Source: Ramlibacter sp. PS4R-6 (GTDB lineage Bacteria; Pseudomonadota; Gammaproteobacteria; Burkholderiales; Burkholderiaceae_C). Taken from it: a DNA stretch of 64,000 nucleotides. The stretch is from assembly GCF_037572775.1 (NCBI RefSeq), contig NZ_JBBHKA010000001.1, positions 1,364,001 to 1,428,000 of the forward strand, read 5' to 3'. This document shows, one piece after another, positions 22,401 to 31,030 of the stretch (its first letter is position 1; each line of letters starts with the position of its first letter). The translations under genes and the position numbers were made by a program. Below the pieces are notes generated by a model. That model had not been told where the DNA came from. It saw only the letters and a list, made by a program, of their open reading frames with translations, and made no database searches.

Positions 22401-22459
22401 TTCATATAGGAGAATTCATATAGGACGCTAGAATCCGCCTCCTATATGAATAGCGTCCT
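22401..22459 (+). repeat. Direct and inverted repeats spanning the start of the TnpB-like gene
   Basis: TTCATATAGGA occurs at 22401-22411 and 22415-22425, and its reverse complement TCCTATATGAA at 22440-22450. A second, overlapping pair is AGGACGCTA (22422-22430) with TAGCGTCCT (22451-22459). The ATG at 22446 lies in the third copy. TAGAAT at 22429-22434 is -10-like and would start transcription about five bases before the ATG, giving a nearly leaderless mRNA. This AT-rich island differs sharply from its surroundings. An operator or a start-codon-sequestering hairpin are both possible. Confidence 0.75.
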
Positions 22460-23051
22460 GCGTGTCACCCTGAACCCGGCGCCCGAGCAGTCGGCCCGGC
22501 TGGAGGCCTTGCAGGAGGCGTTCGCCAAGGCCTGCAACAGCATCGCACCGCTGGTGCAAGCCAGCCGGGTGTGGAACCGCGTGGCGCTGCACCACCTGGC
22601 CTACCGGGGCCTGCGGCAAGCCTTCCCGAACATCGGCTCGCAGATGGCGTGCAACGTGATCTATTCGGTCTCGCGCGCCTGCCGCATCGTCTACCAGCAC
22701 CCCGACAGCCCCTTCAACCTCCAGCGCCTGGGCGACAAGCCGCTGCCGCTGGTGCAGTTCGACAAATCCTCGCCCGTGTATTTCGACCGCCATACGCTCA
22801 GTCTCCGCGACGGCACGCTCTCGATGTACACGCTGGACGGCCGGATGCGTTTCCAGGTGGCGCTCACGCCACAGGACGAGGAGCGCTTCCGCAACGAGAA
22901 GGTGCGCGAGATCGTGCTCGCGCGCCCGCTCGGCCAGGGACGCAGCTTCGAGCTGGCGTTCCACTTCTCGCAGGAGGGCGAAGTCGCGGCCCCCATCCCG
23001 GCGCCTTCCGCGGCGCTTCCCGTCTACCTCCGCGTCGAAAGCGCAGCATGA
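22446..23051 (+). CDS. TnpB-like N-terminal (RuvC-less) protein
   Basis: 201 residues. By eye it follows the N-terminal half of IS200/IS605 TnpB proteins: LNPAPEQSARLEALQEAF, the AKACNSIAP stretch, RGLRQAFP then SQMACNVIYSVSRA, and the strand pair DRHTLSLRDGTLSMYTLDGRMR that lies before the RuvC domain. It then ends, after a short Pro/Ala tail, about where RuvC-I should begin. The catalytic Asp/Glu residues and zinc ribbon are absent. The stop overlaps the ABC exporter ATG by four bases, so it is embedded in the operon and not debris. A nucleic-acid-binding regulator derived from TnpB is possible; no function is shown. Confidence 0.6.
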   Translation: MNSVLRVTLNPAPEQSARLEALQEAFAKACNSIAPLVQASRVWNRVALHHLAYRGLRQAFPNIGSQMACNVIYSVSRACRIVYQHPDSPFNLQRLGDKPLPLVQFDKSSPVYFDRHTLSLRDGTLSMYTLDGRMRFQVALTPQDEERFRNEKVREIVLARPLGQGRSFELAFHFSQEGEVAAPIPAPSAALPVYLRVESAA

Positions 23052-24805
23052 GCCCCAACAAGTCCCAGGAACTGCGCGAAGCCTTCGACGCGACCCGGCC
23101 CTACCTGCGCCGCGCGGGCGTGTTCAGCGTCGCCGCCGGCCTGCTGTCGCTGTCTTCCAGCGCGTACATGCTGTCGGTGTACGACCGCGTGCTCACCAGC
23201 CGCAGCATCCTCACGCTCGGGATGCTGCTGCTCGCGGTGCTCGCGGCGTACGCGGTGCTCGAGGTCGTGGAGTGGGCGCGCGGCGAGATCCTGCACGAGG
23301 CCGGCGAAGCCTTCGAGCGCAGCCTGGCCCGCCGCGTGTTCGACGTGATGTTCACGATCAACCTGCAGCGGCCCGGCTCGCCCACCGCCCAGCCGCTGGC
23401 CGACCTGAAGACCCTGCGCGACGCCTACAGCTCGCCGGTCTCGTCGGCGTCGATGGAAGCGCCGGTCGCGCTCGTGTACCTGGTGCTGATCTTCGCCATC
23501 AGCCCCGTGCTGGGTTGGGTGGCCGTCGTCGGCGCGGTGCTGCAGACCGGCATCGGCTGGATGAACGAGCGCAGCACGCGCCCGTCGCTGGTCGCATCGC
23601 AGCGCGAGTCGATGGCCGCGCAGCAGTACGCCGACGGCACGCTGCGCAACGCCGAAGTGATCGAGGCGATGGGCATGCTGCCCGACGTGCACCAGCGCTG
23701 GCAGAAGAAGCAGCGCCAGTTCCTGGACCTGCAGGCCGTGGCGTCGACCAACGCCGGCAAGTACCAGGCCATCACCAAGTTCGTGCAGATGACGCTGAGC
23801 TCCGCGCTGCTGGGGCTGGCCGCATGGCTGATGCTGCACGACTCGCTCAACGGCGGCGGCGCCATGCTGGTGATCTCCTCGATCCTCGGCGCGCGCATGC
23901 TGCAGCCGCTGGTGCAGATCGTCACGCAGTGGCGCACCGTGGTGCTCGCGCGCGACGCATGGACCCGCCTGTCGGAACTGCTCGACGCCAAGCCGGCCCG
24001 CGGCCCGTCGATGTCGCTGCCGCCGCCCAAGGGCATGCTGACGGTGGAACAGGTCACGGCCGGCGCGCCCGGCATGCAGGCCGCCATCCTGCGCAACGTC
24101 TCGTTCGGCCTCGCCTCGGGGCAGGTGCTCGCCGTGGTCGGGCCCTCCGCATCCGGCAAGACGACGCTGGCGCGCCTGCTGGTGGGCATCTGGCCCGCGG
24201 CCGCCGGCAAGGTGCGGCTGGACGGGGCGGATGTCTTCGGCTGGGACAAGGCCGAACTCGGCCCGTACGTCGGCTACCTGCCGCAGGACGTCGAGCTGTT
24301 CGAAGGCACGCTCGCCGAAAACATCGCGCGCTTCGGCGCGGTGGACATGGAGAAGGTCGAAGCCGCCGCGCGCTCCGTCGGGCTGCACGACCTGATCACG
24401 CAATTGCCCGGCGGCTACGACAGCCCCATCGGCGACGACGGCGCGATGCTCTCCGGCGGCCAGCGCCAGCGCGTCGCGCTGGCCCGGGCTCTGTACGGCG
24501 ACCCGGCGCTGGTGGTGCTGGACGAACCCAATTCGAGCCTGGACGAATCGGGCGATGCCGCCCTCGCTTCGGCCATCCGCGGCCTGAAGGAGCGCGGCAC
24601 GACCTTCGTGATCATGACCCACCGCACCAGCGTGCTCGCGGTGGCCGACCGCATGCTGGTCCTGCACGACGGCGTCGCGCAGGCCTTCGGTCCGCGCGAC
24701 GAGGTGCTCGCCGCGCTCGCGAAGGCCGCGGCCGCCGGCAAGGCGAAGGCGGCCGAGGCCGCAGCGGCCGGCGCAGCCCTTCCCGCAACCCCCGCGCGTG
24801 CCTGA
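23048..24805 (+). CDS. Type I secretion ABC permease/ATPase (PrtD-type), first copy
   Basis: 585 residues. The N-terminal half has the membrane helices (VFSVAAGLLSLSSSAYMLSVYDRVL and further segments to about 320). The nucleotide-binding domain has Walker A GPSASGKT at 365-372, the LSGGQRQR signature, Walker B LVVLDEP and the H-loop MTHR, so it looks catalytically complete. There is no C39 peptidase domain, and it ends in an Ala/Lys-rich tail. It energises export of unfolded substrates with HlyD and TolC. It is followed after eight bases by a second ABC gene, so a heterodimer is plausible. Likely substrates are the DUF4214 proteins at 4013 and 29331. Confidence 0.9.
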   Translation: MSPNKSQELREAFDATRPYLRRAGVFSVAAGLLSLSSSAYMLSVYDRVLTSRSILTLGMLLLAVLAAYAVLEVVEWARGEILHEAGEAFERSLARRVFDVMFTINLQRPGSPTAQPLADLKTLRDAYSSPVSSASMEAPVALVYLVLIFAISPVLGWVAVVGAVLQTGIGWMNERSTRPSLVASQRESMAAQQYADGTLRNAEVIEAMGMLPDVHQRWQKKQRQFLDLQAVASTNAGKYQAITKFVQMTLSSALLGLAAWLMLHDSLNGGGAMLVISSILGARMLQPLVQIVTQWRTVVLARDAWTRLSELLDAKPARGPSMSLPPPKGMLTVEQVTAGAPGMQAAILRNVSFGLASGQVLAVVGPSASGKTTLARLLVGIWPAAAGKVRLDGADVFGWDKAELGPYVGYLPQDVELFEGTLAENIARFGAVDMEKVEAAARSVGLHDLITQLPGGYDSPIGDDGAMLSGGQRQRVALARALYGDPALVVLDEPNSSLDESGDAALASAIRGLKERGTTFVIMTHRTSVLAVADRMLVLHDGVAQAFGPRDEVLAALAKAAAAGKAKAAEAAAAGAALPATPARA

Positions 24806-24813
24806 GGACGACC

Positions 24814-26535
24814 ATGAAGACACCCGCTTTCTTCCAGCGCAGCGAACTCGCCGCCTCCCTGTGGAACTTCCGCCGCGAGTTCTGGGTGGTGGGCCTGTGC
24901 AGCTTCGTCGCCAACCTGCTGATGCTCGCGCCCACGCTGTACATGATGCAGGTCTACGACCGCGTCCTGGCCAGCCGCAACGAGCTCACGCTGCTCGCGA
25001 TCTCGCTCATCACGCTGTTCTTCTTCGTGCTGATGGCGATCGCCGAGTGGTCGCGCTCGCAGATCCTGATCCACGCCGGCATCCGCTTCGACGAACGCCT
25101 GAGCTCGCGCGTGTTCAATTCCAGCTTCGAGACCTACCTCGAAGGCTCCAGCAGCGGCCCGACGCGCGCGTTCACCGACCTGCTGCAGATCCGCCAGATG
25201 CTCACGGGGCAGACGCTCTTCACGCTGTTCGACGTGCCGTGGACGCCCATCTACATCGCCGTGATGTACCTCGTGCACCCGCTGCTCGGGTGGGTGGCGA
25301 TCGTGTTCGCCATCATCCAGGGCCTGGTGGCGTGGTTCGGCCACGCGCGCACCGTCAAGCCCACGCAGGACGCTGCCCAGGCGGCCACCGGCGTGCAGAT
25401 GTACCTGAAGAGCAAGCTGCGCAACATCGAGGTGATCGAGTCGATGGGCATGCTGGGCGCGCTGCGCAAGCGCTGGCAGGCGTGGCAGGACGAGTTCAAC
25501 GTGAAGCACGGGCACGCATCGGCGGTCAACCATCGCGCCACGGCGCTGAGCAAGTTCGCGCGCTATGTGCAGCAGTCCGTCGGCCTAGCGGCCGGCGCGC
25601 TGCTGGTGGCGAACGGCGAACTGTCGCCCGGCGGCATGATCGCCTGTAACCTGCTGATGAACCGCGCGCTGTCGCCGATCGACTCGCTGGTGCAGTCCTG
25701 GCGCAGCTTCGCCAATGCGCGCGACGCCTTCCTGCGCCTGGAGACGCTGCTGACCGGCTACCCGGAGCGCGAGGTTCCGCTGCGCGGCGAGGCGCCGACC
25801 GGCGAAGTCGTCCTGCGCGGCGCGGTGGCCGATGCGCCCGGCCGCAAGGAGCCGATCCTCAAGGGCGTGGACCTGTCGGTCCGCCCGGGCGAGGTGGTGG
25901 TGGTCATGGGTCCCTCGGGCTCGGGCAAGTCGACGCTGGCTCGCGTGATCACCGGCATCTGGCCGCACGTCACGGGCGAGGTGCAGCTGGGCGGCGTGCC
26001 GCTCGCGCAGTGGAACCGCGTCGAGCTCGGGCCGCACATCGGCTACCTGCCGCAGGACATCGAACTCTTCGAAGGCAGCATCGCCGAGAACATCAGCCGC
26101 ATGGGCGAGCTCGACTCGGAGAAGGTCATCGAAGCCGCCCGCATCGCCGGCCTGCACGAGATGATCCTGCGCTTCCCGCAAGGCTACGACACGCCGGTGG
26201 GCGCCGCCGGGCGCATGCTCTCGGGCGGCCAGCGCCAGCGCATCGGCCTCGCGCGCGCCGTCTACGGCAACCCGTCGCTGGTCGTGCTCGACGAACCGAA
26301 TGCCAACCTCGACGAAGCCGGCGAGGGCGCACTGGCCCGCGCCGTGCAGCAGCTCAAGGCCGCGGGCAAGGCGGTCATCCTCATCACCCACCGCCCCTCG
26401 GCGATCGCGCTGGCCGACCGCATCGTGCTGGTCCAGGACGGCACGATCCGCGCCGACGGCCCGCGCGACGCGGTGCTCGCATCGCTGCGCCCCGCGCAGG
26501 CCCCCGCCCGGCTGGCGAACCCGCAGCCCGCCTGA
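24814..26535 (+). CDS. Type I secretion ABC permease/ATPase (PrtD-type), second copy
   Basis: 574 residues, homologous to the preceding protein throughout. It has membrane segments from FWVVGLCSFVANLLMLAP, then Walker A GPSGSGKS at 366-373, LSGGQRQR, Walker B LVVLDEPNANLD and an ITHR H-loop. All catalytic residues are present, so neither copy is a degenerate half. Type I systems normally have one ABC gene. Two intact tandem copies with one HlyD and one TolC suggest either a heterodimeric exporter or two homodimers with different clients. Confidence 0.9.
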   Translation: MKTPAFFQRSELAASLWNFRREFWVVGLCSFVANLLMLAPTLYMMQVYDRVLASRNELTLLAISLITLFFFVLMAIAEWSRSQILIHAGIRFDERLSSRVFNSSFETYLEGSSSGPTRAFTDLLQIRQMLTGQTLFTLFDVPWTPIYIAVMYLVHPLLGWVAIVFAIIQGLVAWFGHARTVKPTQDAAQAATGVQMYLKSKLRNIEVIESMGMLGALRKRWQAWQDEFNVKHGHASAVNHRATALSKFARYVQQSVGLAAGALLVANGELSPGGMIACNLLMNRALSPIDSLVQSWRSFANARDAFLRLETLLTGYPEREVPLRGEAPTGEVVLRGAVADAPGRKEPILKGVDLSVRPGEVVVVMGPSGSGKSTLARVITGIWPHVTGEVQLGGVPLAQWNRVELGPHIGYLPQDIELFEGSIAENISRMGELDSEKVIEAARIAGLHEMILRFPQGYDTPVGAAGRMLSGGQRQRIGLARAVYGNPSLVVLDEPNANLDEAGEGALARAVQQLKAAGKAVILITHRPSAIALADRIVLVQDGTIRADGPRDAVLASLRPAQAPARLANPQPA

Positions 26536-26565: not shown

Positions 26566-27927
26566 ATGGAAACGCAAAACCAACTCCAGCCCCCGTCGGC
26601 CACGCCCGCACCGGGCGCACCGGCCGATGAAGGCCACACCCACGGCGACTCCATCCGGGCCGGCCGCATCGGCCTGTGGGCCCTGGGCCTCGGCTTCGTC
26701 GGCTTCCTGCTGTGGGCTGCGTTCGCGCCGCTGGACGAAGGCGTGCCGGCCACCGGCGTCGTCTCCATCAACACCAAGCGCAAGGCGGTGCAGCACCCCA
26801 CCGGCGGCATCATCAAGGAGATGATGGTGCAGGAAGGCGACCGCGTGCGCGAAGGCCAGGTCCTGCTCAAGCTCGACGAAGCCGCCACGCGCGCCAACTA
26901 CGAAAGCATCCGCCAGGAGTATTTCGGCCTGCGCGCGATGCAGGGGCGCCTGCTCGCCGAGCAGTCCGGCCTGCCCGCGATGACGATCCACCCGGACCTG
27001 CAGGCCGCGGCCGCGAAGGACCCGCTGATCCGCAACCAGGTGCAGACGCAGCAGCAGCTGTTCGCCTCGCGCCGCTCCTCGTTGCAGGCCGACCTGCAGC
27101 AGATCCAGGAAAGCATCCGCGGCCAGGAATCGCTGATCCGCTCCTACCAGGAGATCCTCATCAGCCGGCGCAGCCAGCTCGCGCTCATCAACGACGAGCT
27201 GAAGAACACCCGCGAGCTCGTGGTCGAAGGCTACATGCCGCGCAACCGCCAGCTGGAGCTTGAACGGATGGTGGCCGACGCGAACGGCGCGGTCGCCGAA
27301 CTGCTCGGCAACATCGCCCGCACGCACAACGCGATCGCCGAGCTGCGCCAGAAGTCGCTCGGGCGCACGCAGGAGTACCGCAAGGAGGTCGAAGGCGGGC
27401 TGACCGACGTGACGCGCCAGGTGCAGGCCGACGAAGCCAAGTTCCAGGCGCTGGGCGACGACCTCAATCGCACCGAGCTGCGCTCCCCCGCGACCGGCCA
27501 GGTCGTCGGCCTCGCCATCCAGACGGTGGGCGGCGTCATCCAGGGCGGCCAGAAGATCATGGACATCGTGCCCGACAACGAGATGCTGCTCGTGGAGACG
27601 CGCGTGGCGCCGAACCTGATCGACCAGGTGCACGCGGGCCTGCCGGTGGACATCCGCTTCAACACGTTCTCCAACTCGCCGGTGCTAGTCGTCGACGGCA
27701 AGGTCGTGTCGATCTCCGGCGACCTGCTCGCCGACCAGCAAAGCGGCGCCACCTACTACCTGGCGCGCGTGGCCGTCACGCCCGAAGGCCAGAAGAAGCT
27801 CGGCAAGCGCGTGCTGCAGGCCGGCATGCCGGTGGAAGTCGTGCTCAAGACCGGCGAGCGTTCGATGCTGGCCTACGTGCTGCACCCGCTGACCAAGCGC
27901 CTTGCGGCGGCGATGAAGGAGCAATGA
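26566..27927 (+). CDS. HlyD-family membrane fusion protein
   Basis: 453 residues. The N-terminal 40 are cytosolic and Pro/Ala-rich, then one membrane helix (LWALGLGFVGFLLWAAF). A barrel-sandwich/lipoyl part (PTGGIIKEMMVQEGDRV and later LRSPATGQVVGLAIQTVGG) brackets a long coiled coil at about residues 110-300. It bridges the ABC pair and TolC across the periplasm. The stop overlaps the tolC-like ATG (ATGA). Length and layout are standard for type I secretion adaptors. Confidence 0.92.
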   Translation: METQNQLQPPSATPAPGAPADEGHTHGDSIRAGRIGLWALGLGFVGFLLWAAFAPLDEGVPATGVVSINTKRKAVQHPTGGIIKEMMVQEGDRVREGQVLLKLDEAATRANYESIRQEYFGLRAMQGRLLAEQSGLPAMTIHPDLQAAAAKDPLIRNQVQTQQQLFASRRSSLQADLQQIQESIRGQESLIRSYQEILISRRSQLALINDELKNTRELVVEGYMPRNRQLELERMVADANGAVAELLGNIARTHNAIAELRQKSLGRTQEYRKEVEGGLTDVTRQVQADEAKFQALGDDLNRTELRSPATGQVVGLAIQTVGGVIQGGQKIMDIVPDNEMLLVETRVAPNLIDQVHAGLPVDIRFNTFSNSPVLVVDGKVVSISGDLLADQQSGATYYLARVAVTPEGQKKLGKRVLQAGMPVEVVLKTGERSMLAYVLHPLTKRLAAAMKEQ

Positions 27928-29321
27928 CGATGCGGTTCACTTCCCGGGCGGTGTCCGCCGCCTGCGTGGCGATGCTGTGCGCGCTGTCGCCGCTCGCATC
28001 CCATGCGCAGAGCCCCGCGGCGACTCCGGCTGCCAGGCCGGCGACCGAGCCCGCGCTGACGCTGGCCGAGGCATACCGCCTGGCCTTCGTCGAGGACGCG
28101 ACGATCCGCGCCGCGCGCGCGCAAGCCGACGCGCGGCGCGAGCGCCTGCCGCAGGCGCGCGCCGCTCTGCTGCCGAACATCTCGGCCAGCTACGGCCGCA
28201 ACCACAACCACCTCGAGAGCACCTCGCCCGGCATCACCGGCCCGGTGGTCGACGAGACGCGCTACGGCAGCAGCAGCAAGGTGCTGACGCTGCGCCAGCC
28301 GATCTTCCGGCCTTACCAGATCGCCGACCTGGCGCAGGCGCGCGCGGTGGTGGCCGATGCGAACGCGCAGCTGGACAAGGAAACGCAGAACCTCGCGGTG
28401 CGCGTGACCAGCGCCTACCTCGATTGCCTGCTCGCGCAGGACCAGCTGGCGCTGATCCTGGCGCAGAAGTCGACGTACACGACGCAGCTGGATGCGGCGA
28501 AGAAGCGCTTCTCGGCCGGCGCCGGCGTGCGCACCGACATCGACGACGCGCAGGCCAAGCTCGATTTCACGATCGCGACCGAGCTGCAGCTGCGCCAGAA
28601 CGTGGATTACACGCGCCGTGTCTTGCAGGTCCTGATCAACCGCCCCGTCACCGCGCTCGCGCCGGTGGACCCGGCCCGCCTGAAGCTGGGCCCGCCGGTG
28701 CCGGCGCAGCTGGACGAGTGGCAGCAGCGCGCCGAGCTCACCAGCCCCGAGCTGCGCTCGATGTCCGCGCAGCGCGACGCCTCGCGGCGCGAGATCGACA
28801 AGGCGCGCGCCGGCCATCTGCCGACGCTGGACTTCGTGGCGCAGCGCTCGATCAGCAACAGCGAGAACGTCACGCGGATCAACTCCAACTACGACAACAC
28901 GAGCTTCGGCATCCAGCTGAACATCCCGATCTTCGCCGGCGGCGGCGTCACCTCGCAGACGCGCCAGGCCGTGGCGGACACCGAGCGCGCCGAGCAGGCG
29001 CTCGAAGCCACGCGCCGCGACCTCGCGCTGCGCATCGAGCAGGAGTTCCGCGGCGTGACCGAAGGCGTCGCGAAGGTCGCGGCGCTGGAGAAGGCCGTGC
29101 AGTCGGCCGAGGTGATGGTGCGCTCCACGCGCCGCTCCTACGAAGGCGGCGTGCGCACGGTGGTGGACATCCTCGCGGCCGAGGAGCAGCGGGTGACCGC
29201 GCTGCGCGACCTGGCGCAGGCGCGCTACCTGTACCTGCTGTCGCGCGTGCGCCTGCAGGCGCTCACCGGCGTCGCCGACGAGACGGCCATCGCGGAGATC
29301 AATTCGACGCTCGCCCCCTGA
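27924..29321 (+). CDS. TolC-family outer membrane channel
   Basis: 465 residues, signal peptide with cleavage near SHAQS. The internal duplication of the TolC fold is visible: LTLAEAYRLAFVEDATIRAARAQADARRERLPQARAALLP in the first half, and a second helical hairpin near LRSMSAQRDASRREIDKARAGHLPTLD. YEGGVRTVVDILAAEEQ is the typical C-terminal segment. It forms the outer-membrane exit. It may also serve the HlyB/HlyD system at 38426-42123, which lacks its own TolC. Only nine bases separate it from the convergent protease gene, leaving no room for a terminator. Confidence 0.92.
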   Translation: MTMRFTSRAVSAACVAMLCALSPLASHAQSPAATPAARPATEPALTLAEAYRLAFVEDATIRAARAQADARRERLPQARAALLPNISASYGRNHNHLESTSPGITGPVVDETRYGSSSKVLTLRQPIFRPYQIADLAQARAVVADANAQLDKETQNLAVRVTSAYLDCLLAQDQLALILAQKSTYTTQLDAAKKRFSAGAGVRTDIDDAQAKLDFTIATELQLRQNVDYTRRVLQVLINRPVTALAPVDPARLKLGPPVPAQLDEWQQRAELTSPELRSMSAQRDASRREIDKARAGHLPTLDFVAQRSISNSENVTRINSNYDNTSFGIQLNIPIFAGGGVTSQTRQAVADTERAEQALEATRRDLALRIEQEFRGVTEGVAKVAALEKAVQSAEVMVRSTRRSYEGGVRTVVDILAAEEQRVTALRDLAQARYLYLLSRVRLQALTGVADETAIAEINSTLAP

Positions 29322-29330
29322 GGGCGCGCG

Positions 29331-30884
29331 TCATCCCAGGGTAGAGAAGGTGTCGGACACCCCGATCAGCGCAACGGCAGCGGCCGTGCTGGTCGGGGTG
29401 ACCGCCGCTGCCATCTGCATGCCGTGCGTGATGGAGTCCTCGGGCAGCCGGTAGCTCAGGCCCATCTCCACCGCGAAGTGCTGCGCGACCAGCGCCTTGT
29501 TGTCCAGCAAATCCGCCACCCAGCCCCAGGTGGCATTGCCCTTGAACGACAGCGCCGACTGCAGGATCTGGTCGACGAGGTAGCCGCGGCTCGTGCCGTG
29601 CGCGAGCGCGTCGGTCCAGTAGGTCAGGCCTTCCGGGTCCGCGCCTTCGCTGCGCCCCAGCGAGTTGCGGTACACGAGGTTGACGAAGTCGGCGTTGGTC
29701 ATCGCCGCCGAGTAGCCGGTCTGCGCCGGGTACTGCAGCGCCGCCGAATAGAAGTTGTCCGCGACCTGCACGATGCTCTTGCCGGCGCGCACCTGGTTGA
29801 TCCAGAAGTCCAGCCCGTCGGCCTCGGGGATGCGGTTGAAGAAGCCGACGTACAGCGACTCCAGCAGCTTCAGGTCCCACGCCGAGATCGCGCGCGAGTC
29901 GGCGCCGACCTGCAGGTTCACCGTGAAGTCCGAGAACGCCACGTGCGTGGGGCCTTCGAGCGTGTCGCGGCCATCGCGGCCGGCCACGGTGTCGTTCACG
30001 ACGATGTCGCTGCTCGCATGCGAGAGGCGGTAGTCGGTGCGGGCGCCGGAGAACTGCACCGTGTCCGAGCCGCCGCGGCCGAGGAAGCTTTCGTCCAGCG
30101 ACGTGCTGCGGAACGTTTCCGACGCGGTGCTGCCCATGTAGGCCACGATGCCCGTGGCCGCGCCGGGGAAGGTGCCGGCGAAGGGGAACTGCGCACCTTG
30201 CATCACCGCGTCGTCGGCGTGAATGGCGTCCTGCACCCATTGCCAGTTGCTGCCGTAGAGGGCCGCATAGGTGGTTTCCGTCAGCGCGCCGTCGCCGCTG
30301 GAGAGCACGCCGACCACCGACGTCACGCCGCCTTCGGTGCGCAAGAGCGGCCCGCCGGACGCGCCAGGCCCCAGGCTCGCGTCGATGTCGTAGATCTGCC
30401 AGGTGGCCGACGCATGCGCGACGATCTGCTCTTCCATCTGGCCCGAGCCGCGCGCGGGGTAGCCGTTGATGGTGCCGGTGAAGTCGTTGGCGTAGGACGC
30501 GACGGGGGTCCAGCCGGTGGTGTTGCCGATCGGCGTGCGCAGCCCCAGCACTGCCAGGTCGAACTGCGATTCGTCCGGCGTGAGCAGGCCGGGCGCGTCG
30601 CCGTTGTCCCAGTCGGGCGTGCGCGCAAAGATCACGGCGACGTCGGTGTAGCTGCCGAAAGGCGACAGCAGGCCGGGCGACGTGTCGGCGCCGGGCACGA
30701 CCTTGATGCTGGTGGCGAAGCCGCCGCGCGCCGCGTCGTAGATCGCGTGGTCGGCGGTGAGCACGTCGTTCAGGCCGACGACGATGCCGGAGGCTCGCGT
30801 GGCGGGTCCGCCGTCGGGCCACGTGCATTGCAGGTAGCAGATGCTGCTGTAGGGCAGCACCGTGCGGTTCGAGATCTCGTACAT
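29331..30884 (-). CDS. Trypsin-like serine protease with DUF4214 domain, probable type I substrate
   Basis: 517 residues from ATG 30884, which has AGGA upstream. Residues about 1-215 are a chymotrypsin-fold protease with the full triad: H46 in VLTADHA, D109 in FDLAVLGL and S176 in GPGASGGPLL. There is no signal peptide. Residues about 250-335 resemble RTX-associated sequence (GRGGSDTVQFSGARTDYRL). Residues about 350-460 are DUF4214-like, with LLESLYVGFFNRIPEADGLDFW and LVYRNSLGR units like those in the S-layer-like protein. It is convergent with the type I secretion operon, its probable export route. It may process surface proteins or host proteins. Confidence 0.8.
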   Translation of the reverse strand: MYEISNRTVLPYSSICYLQCTWPDGGPATRASGIVVGLNDVLTADHAIYDAARGGFATSIKVVPGADTSPGLLSPFGSYTDVAVIFARTPDWDNGDAPGLLTPDESQFDLAVLGLRTPIGNTTGWTPVASYANDFTGTINGYPARGSGQMEEQIVAHASATWQIYDIDASLGPGASGGPLLRTEGGVTSVVGVLSSGDGALTETTYAALYGSNWQWVQDAIHADDAVMQGAQFPFAGTFPGAATGIVAYMGSTASETFRSTSLDESFLGRGGSDTVQFSGARTDYRLSHASSDIVVNDTVAGRDGRDTLEGPTHVAFSDFTVNLQVGADSRAISAWDLKLLESLYVGFFNRIPEADGLDFWINQVRAGKSIVQVADNFYSAALQYPAQTGYSAAMTNADFVNLVYRNSLGRSEGADPEGLTYWTDALAHGTSRGYLVDQILQSALSFKGNATWGWVADLLDNKALVAQHFAVEMGLSYRLPEDSITHGMQMAAAVTPTSTAAAVALIGVSDTFSTLG

Positions 30885-31030
30885 GGGGTCCTGTGGTCGC
30901 TCCCCCTCCACTCCGGGCGCTATCTTCGCACGGCTGAGCCTGGCGAATCAGTGACGGCCGGTACTGAATGTGACGGGGGGTGAGACAATCCGCGCGAGTT
31001 TCCGGCACCCGAAAGTCCGCACCTGAAGGC

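Follow-up and report, generated by a model that had tools for sequence, protein, structure and literature searches.

A RuvC-less TnpB-like protein at the head of a type I secretion operon, a candidate guide-free repressor of its own promoter

The window analysed here is a 64,000-nt stretch of the genome of Ramlibacter sp. PS4R-6 (contig NZ_JBBHKA010000001.1, positions 1,364,001 to 1,428,000), and the gene in question (22446–23051, forward strand) encodes a 201-aa protein, P0001, that stands first in a type I secretion operon. Judging from sequence and predicted structure, we lean, a little to the probable side of even, towards the view that P0001 is the WED-REC half of a TnpB, the nuclease of IS200/IS605 insertion sequences (IS), and that it acts as a guide-free repressor of sites in its own promoter. 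In the literature searched, mostly open-access and available in part, neither a TnpB regulator lacking RuvC nor an operon of this kind came to light.

Kinship of P0001 with TnpB

The protein was assigned through an open reading frame (ORF) call, its predicted fold, and profile and pairwise matches. Its frame is unbroken over 22446–23051, as a first-pass annotation made from the letters of this DNA had stated, and the gene is present in a single copy in the window's genome (G000). The predicted structure is confident (predicted local distance difference test, pLDDT, of 92), and its top matches among solved structures are the WED-REC lobes of Cas12f and TnpB; the first-pass annotation, which saw in the protein the N-terminal half of TnpB, had been ready to drop that idea if no such match appeared. 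The same idea is borne out at the sequence level: P0001 aligns with the complete TnpB P0196, which has a tnpA-like ORF adjoining, over 144 aa at 40% identity (E 3e-33 in that one comparison), a profile built from 63 P0001 relatives matches P0196 at E 9e-37 in a 299-genome sample, and all nine of the nine plasmid records matched by P0001 are labelled TnpB or transposase. In a tree, 36 sampled family members form one clade placed among P0196-like TnpBs. Sequence comparisons of these kinds indicate that the P0001 family descends from TnpB.

The C-terminal end of P0001 precedes the position of RuvC-I, about where it had first been placed, and the protein has no RuvC part, catalytic residues or C-terminal zinc-binding part. 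By tblastn, three TnpB C-terminal halves gave no match at E < 1e-3 in any of 98 loci (0/98), versus 95 of the same 98 for the TnpB N-terminal half, in agreement with the earlier remark that no second half is visible. A frameshifted RuvC remnant downstream was ruled out by the same search; one locus (L022) was flagged by a loose motif scan and gave nothing below E 1e-3.

P0001 scores well below the cut-off of every Pfam and NCBIfam model, so the resemblance to TnpB is invisible to standard annotation, and neither a helix-turn-helix nor another standard DNA-binding family was matched in these two libraries. The TnpB model NF040570 found no match in the window's genome at E ≤ 1e-3, and the best PHROGs match of P0001 has E 0.23. 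Searched against PDB sequences, the A1 family profile found no TnpB or Cas12 chain; P0196 matches such chains there mainly through its RuvC half. Weak family matches among the 63 members were to PRK13920, a putative anti-sigmaE (20 members, best E 0.0036), DUF6741 (five, best E 0.0096), the TIGR01765 transposase N-terminal domain (three, best E 0.11), TarH (two, best E 0.001) and KefC (two, best E 0.0044). Residues 190–198 form a conserved C-terminal tail after a variable linker (consensus PEYVxV), with P192 and Y194 invariant in the 63 sequences; residues 191–200 are modelled as a strand (pLDDT 93) with no counterpart in the aligned TnpBs.

At E ≤ 1e-3, 4,214 protein clusters are related to P0001. 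The best 120 of these are ~200 aa long, have no Pfam domain and are called 'hypothetical' or 'uncharacterized protein' where named; the closest named relative among the matches listed is from Ramlibacter (P0004). Hosts of the lobe gene together with the export operon include Comamonas, Acidovorax and Thauera, and the distribution is patchy, with matches in 18 of 200 genomes of the family, three of them by weak partial matches alone. The 98 loci comprise the best 80 of 234 related genome-contig stretches plus the family-genome matches; 95 hold the full gene, as three short partial matches (L016–L018) were left out of all counts of 95, and removal of six same-protein repeats from the distinct counts leaves 89 distinct full-length proteins. 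This number, together with many invariant columns, rules out a pseudogene, and the earlier statement that the gene is not debris holds, given the intact frame, the 4,214 related clusters and an exporter downstream in 85/85 distinct loci.

Operator-like sites in the promoter

The promoter of the P0001 gene holds three copies of an 11-base word, TTCATATAGGA, whose first five bases are TTCAT, within 50 bases. Two of these operator-like arms are direct (22401–22411 and 22415–22425, forward strand) and the last is inverted (22440–22450, reverse strand) and holds the start codon (22446–22448). All three are exact and are the only exact copies in the 3.84-Mb genome. A -10-like hexamer, TAGAAT (22429–22434, forward strand), lies between the second and third arms, 11 nt before the ATG, in a layout seen in most relatives.

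We counted sites with ≤2 mismatches in 87 distinct promoters, omitting identical upstream sequences and two loci with <100 nt upstream (L072, L097), and found three sites in 11 promoters, two in 64, one in 11 and none in one. The promoter without a site belongs to L009 (G009), whose start is misplaced in the alignment: its protein has 76 extra N-terminal residues, and two exact arms lie 228 nt (76 codons) before the aligned start, at the true start codon. The L009 arms thus keep to the true start, far from the aligned one, which points to conservation of the promoter and not of the N-terminal codons. With L009 mended, a site is present in 87/87 promoters and at least two in 76/87, against a background of 42 sites (≤2 mismatches) across 699,435 bp of these loci; L009 was left out of the -10, synonymous-site, upstream 9-mer and arm-symmetry analyses. 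The last site covers the ATG in 74/87 promoters, and the commonest layout is a converging pair (55/87), with a start-to-start distance of 26–28 bp between the last two sites in 50 promoters; in a typical promoter one site precedes the -10 and another covers the ATG. A TAnnnT -10-like element occurs at -30..-6 in 82 of 86 promoters, versus eight of 86 in a length-matched stretch upstream, and in 76 promoters it ends 6–11 nt before the ATG, which would imply a leader of ~0–5 nt. Conservation of the arm ends at about position 12–13; within a promoter, the two arms share the base at position 12 more often than chance would give (77% versus 51%), with no such excess past 13.

These sites are dedicated to the gene as well as conserved at its own promoter, as would be looked for in a DNA-binding autoregulator. 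In 14 gene-bearing genomes, 21 of 21 exact arm copies lie at this gene's promoter, and 20 gene-less genomes hold two exact copies, one of them inside a coding gene. The first-pass annotation had suggested that the protein could regulate the exporter, with no mention of these arms; as sequence evidence they support that suggestion strongly.

Repression is not the only use to which bound arms could be put. P0001 might activate the operon, or merely tune it, with RNA polymerase, and one site is indeed usually found upstream of the -10, while the sign of regulation is something that we infer. In 74/87 promoters, however, the ATG is covered by a site that follows the -10-like hexamer, and bacterial operators so placed typically block the start of transcription or translation. 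We therefore regard activation or tuning as improbable.

In the repressor mechanism that we propose, the lobe that grips the duplex of the target-adjacent motif (TAM) in TnpB would still read TTCAT, now inside the imperfect dyad TTCnTATAnGAA, presumably as a P0001 dimer and with no guide RNA involved. P0001 would occupy the arms that precede the -10 and those that cover the start codon, RNA polymerase would be blocked by the bound arms, with an mRNA that is almost leaderless, and the outcome would be negative feedback on the lobe gene and the exporter genes behind it. DNA binding, dimer formation, repression and guide independence are properties that we infer for P0001. We give an even chance to the evolutionary account that goes with this mechanism, in which an RNA-guided nuclease became a conventional guide-free transcription factor, the RuvC half and guide RNA being discarded, the TAM-reading lobe becoming the sole source of specificity and two TAM-like half-sites being paired into a dyad.

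If this account is true, a new class of DNA-binding regulator has gone unannotated in what appear to be thousands of protein clusters, and the TAM-recognition module of TnpB or the protospacer-adjacent motif (PAM) recognition module of Cas12 could stand alone as a sequence-specific regulator. With ~180 ordered residues, P0001 would also be a very small natural test piece for how the TAM module reads DNA. A specific candidate regulator and operator would become available for many type I secretion operons that are so far uncharacterised. One way in which lobe-only proteins can be missed is seen in the TnpB mining of PMC9956272, which discarded sequences with truncated RuvC.

TTCAT, the dyad and the question of a guide RNA

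A second genome of the genus has the orthologous site without the P0196 IS, flanked by the same pair of neighbour genes (homology judged by eye), and we compared the two. The left flank of the IS ends in ...CATTCAT and the right begins with CGCTA, and the empty site reads ...CATTCAACGCTA; TTCAT therefore immediately precedes the IS. For elements of the IS200/IS605 family, the site of insertion doubles as the TnpB TAM. The dyad TTCnTATAnGAA contains TTCAT, and in TTCATATAGGAA five of the six pairs are symmetric (chance 0.5%). Among 177 arms, the four inner symmetric pairs are kept in 168–173, the outer pair in 90 and the 4/9 pair in 11, although these arms were chosen by likeness to the consensus and the symmetry counts are not independent of it. 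By this symmetry, the rest of the arm may be a second, opposed half-site. In TnpB, WED and REC grip the TAM duplex, whereas WED and RuvC carry the RNA scaffold (PMC10097598, available in part), so the part kept in P0001 corresponds to the TAM-gripping part.

Several points weigh against a guide-free dimer at these sites. TTCAT as the TAM comes from one insertion, and the empty site there reads TTCAA, with A for the last T. The residues of ISDra2 TnpB that contact the TAM (Y52, S56, K76, F77, Q80, T123 and N124; PMC10097598) were placed on P0001 (Y53/R57, Q66/M67/N70) by spacing, as a guess. A single site is found in 11/87 promoters, and exact sites are missing from two gene-bearing genomes (G024 and G025); in a few promoters the arms are direct instead of inverted (5/87 '--', 1/87 '++'), and their spacing is variable, an uncommon trait in a rigid operator. 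RNA, too, is bound by WED in TnpB, and by analogy RNA binding by P0001 would be compatible with the loss of the other domains. Moreover, a 5-nt TAM and a 6-nt seed, which according to the available part of PMC13418256 is sufficient for TldR, add up to the arm length of 11.

This last point belongs to the main rival explanation, which we consider unlikely but the most serious of the alternatives. TldRs are TnpB-like nuclease-dead repressors that are RNA-guided (PMC13418256), and P0001 could be a miniature version in which the lobe, with no RuvC, holds a small guide RNA encoded elsewhere, the arm being the TAM TTCAT plus a 6–7-nt seed match, ATAGGA. Repression by TldR with guides down to 6 nt and a 6-nt seed (PMC13418256) fits this, as 5 + 6 gives the 11 bases of the arm, and so does the end of arm conservation near position 12–13. 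ATAGGA is nearly unchanging over many genera, however, though a guide could drift, and the arm is a near dyad.

Searches for the guide RNA itself also speak against this rival. Any 9-mer at -160..-50 is common to at most four of 92 loci, versus 69 at -50..0; synonymous sites of the lobe gene (tested without L009, L095, L015 and L011) gave no strong signal of conservation; and Rfam at E ≤ 1 returned only HIV-1_SD and Twister-sister, both under their gathering scores and taken as chance. A relic of omegaRNA in G000 was rejected, as a 14-nt hairpin pattern (≤2 mismatches) gave 43+34 matches versus 45+58 for the reversed control. A stricter right-end hairpin motif of the related IS was absent from G000, in line with the earlier observation that no IS end is visible, was found in one of 398 genomes (G347, in its own IS) and was absent from viral contigs. 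Little 3' room is left for an omegaRNA, since the 3' end of the lobe gene overlaps the exporter ATG in 62/85 genes. A guide RNA encoded in trans would be compatible with all these null results; between the two modes, guide-free action of P0001 is the more likely.

P0001 resembles TldR as a TnpB descendant that has lost nuclease activity, adjoins the gene it likely controls and is a probable promoter repressor with TAM plus short match, whereas TldR, as far as PMC13418256 could be consulted, retains its guide RNA and a RuvC in mutated form. P0001 lacks the whole RuvC/TNB half, no guide was found, and its own promoter bears several dyad-like sites. The domesticated TnpBs described in PMC13418256 (TldR) stay RNA-guided, while a lobe-only descendant would probably be guide-free. 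With the IS200/IS605 TnpBs of the P0196/P0207 clade P0001 shares the WED-REC lobe and the bases TTCAT, which stand at the insertion site of the P0196 IS, but these are complete nucleases with an adjoining tnpA-like ORF and no exporter operon. Cas12f and nuclease-dead Cas12f (8dzj, 9n9c) are, unlike P0001, RNA-guided effectors, and the 9n9c chain of 365 residues runs far past the lobe. Classical dimeric autorepressors share the dyad operator layout over their own promoter and an apparent single-target regulon; unlike them, P0001 matches no helix-turn-helix or standard family, and its DNA-binding fold appears to be of TnpB origin.

Further copies of the P0196 IS were sought for the TAM. There were none besides P0196 in 78 genomes of its class and none at E ≤ 1e-40 in 369 genomes of the window's class. 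Plasmids gave 86 records: the closest relative stood at 65%, with a left end undefinable beside an IS4-family gene, and the others among the best 30 of 86 were under 60%; relatives were one at 45% in phages and two distant ones in viral contigs. The left and right flank of the Mariprofundus IS (L134) share a near copy (CACCATTCAT / TACCATTCAT), 13 nt inside the right flank, and the near copy is also present in the empty site (CTAACATTCA).

The export operon and its neighbours

The TGA of the P0001 gene overlaps the exporter ATG at 23048 (shared ATGA), as had been noticed from the sequence. A relative of ABC1 or ABC2, the two ATP-binding cassette (ABC) genes of the operon, lies on the same strand ≤800 nt downstream in 85/85 distinct loci having at least 900 nt of downstream sequence, and HlyD is also present in 55/55 loci with >4.9 kb; these counts were made by tblastn, as long antisense ORFs otherwise hide exporter genes. 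The first-pass annotation had proposed a search for the same ~200-residue form before type I exporters, and it occupies this fixed place in all 85, a setting unlike the transposon context (tnpA, IS ends) of a TnpB. When 34 genomes were re-searched with ABC1 at E ≤ 1e-120, a copy 54–65% identical was found in 14/14 gene-bearing genomes, versus one match in 20 gene-less genomes (the first ones listed in the family search, not a random draw), which is 47% identical with neither lobe gene nor arm nearby. The lobe gene, operator and exporter lineage therefore travel together.

So strict a linkage also favours a different role for P0001, that of an exporter accessory such as a cytosolic partner of the ABC subunits, with another factor binding the arms, and the conserved tail residues P192 and Y194, not found in TnpBs, could be a contact. 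We consider this very improbable, since exact arms are nearly absent without the gene, the predicted fold is the DNA-gripping lobe and the REC residues are the best-kept ones in the family.

Behind P0001, and on the same strand, the operon encodes ABC1, a PrtD-type type I secretion permease/ATPase (23048–24805; TIGR01842, 619.7 bits against a cut-off of 510.15), ABC2, a second PrtD-type permease/ATPase (24814–26535, searched from 24805 with the ATG at 24814; TIGR01842, 662.2 bits), a HlyD-type periplasmic adaptor (26566–27927; TIGR01843, 371.7 bits, cut-off 208.65) and a TolC-type outer membrane channel (27924–29321; TIGR01844, 313.5 bits, cut-off 225.15). All four scores exceed the NCBIfam cut-offs. 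The PrtD-type genes are in tandem (23048–26535), and a second ABC (40–46% identical) follows directly behind the first in 12 of 14 gene-bearing genomes; a heterodimeric exporter is possible. In G087 (L193) the exporter match lies inside a 1172-aa open frame, either a fusion of two ABC genes or a chance frame. A convergent gene (29331–30911, reverse strand) weakly matches the MarP family of serine proteases, below the cut-off, and has a DUF4214-like stretch seen by eye; its product is a possible secreted substrate of the exporter. In 19 loci, VVTWG-rich repeat proteins, perhaps also exporter substrates, are encoded upstream of the lobe gene on either strand.
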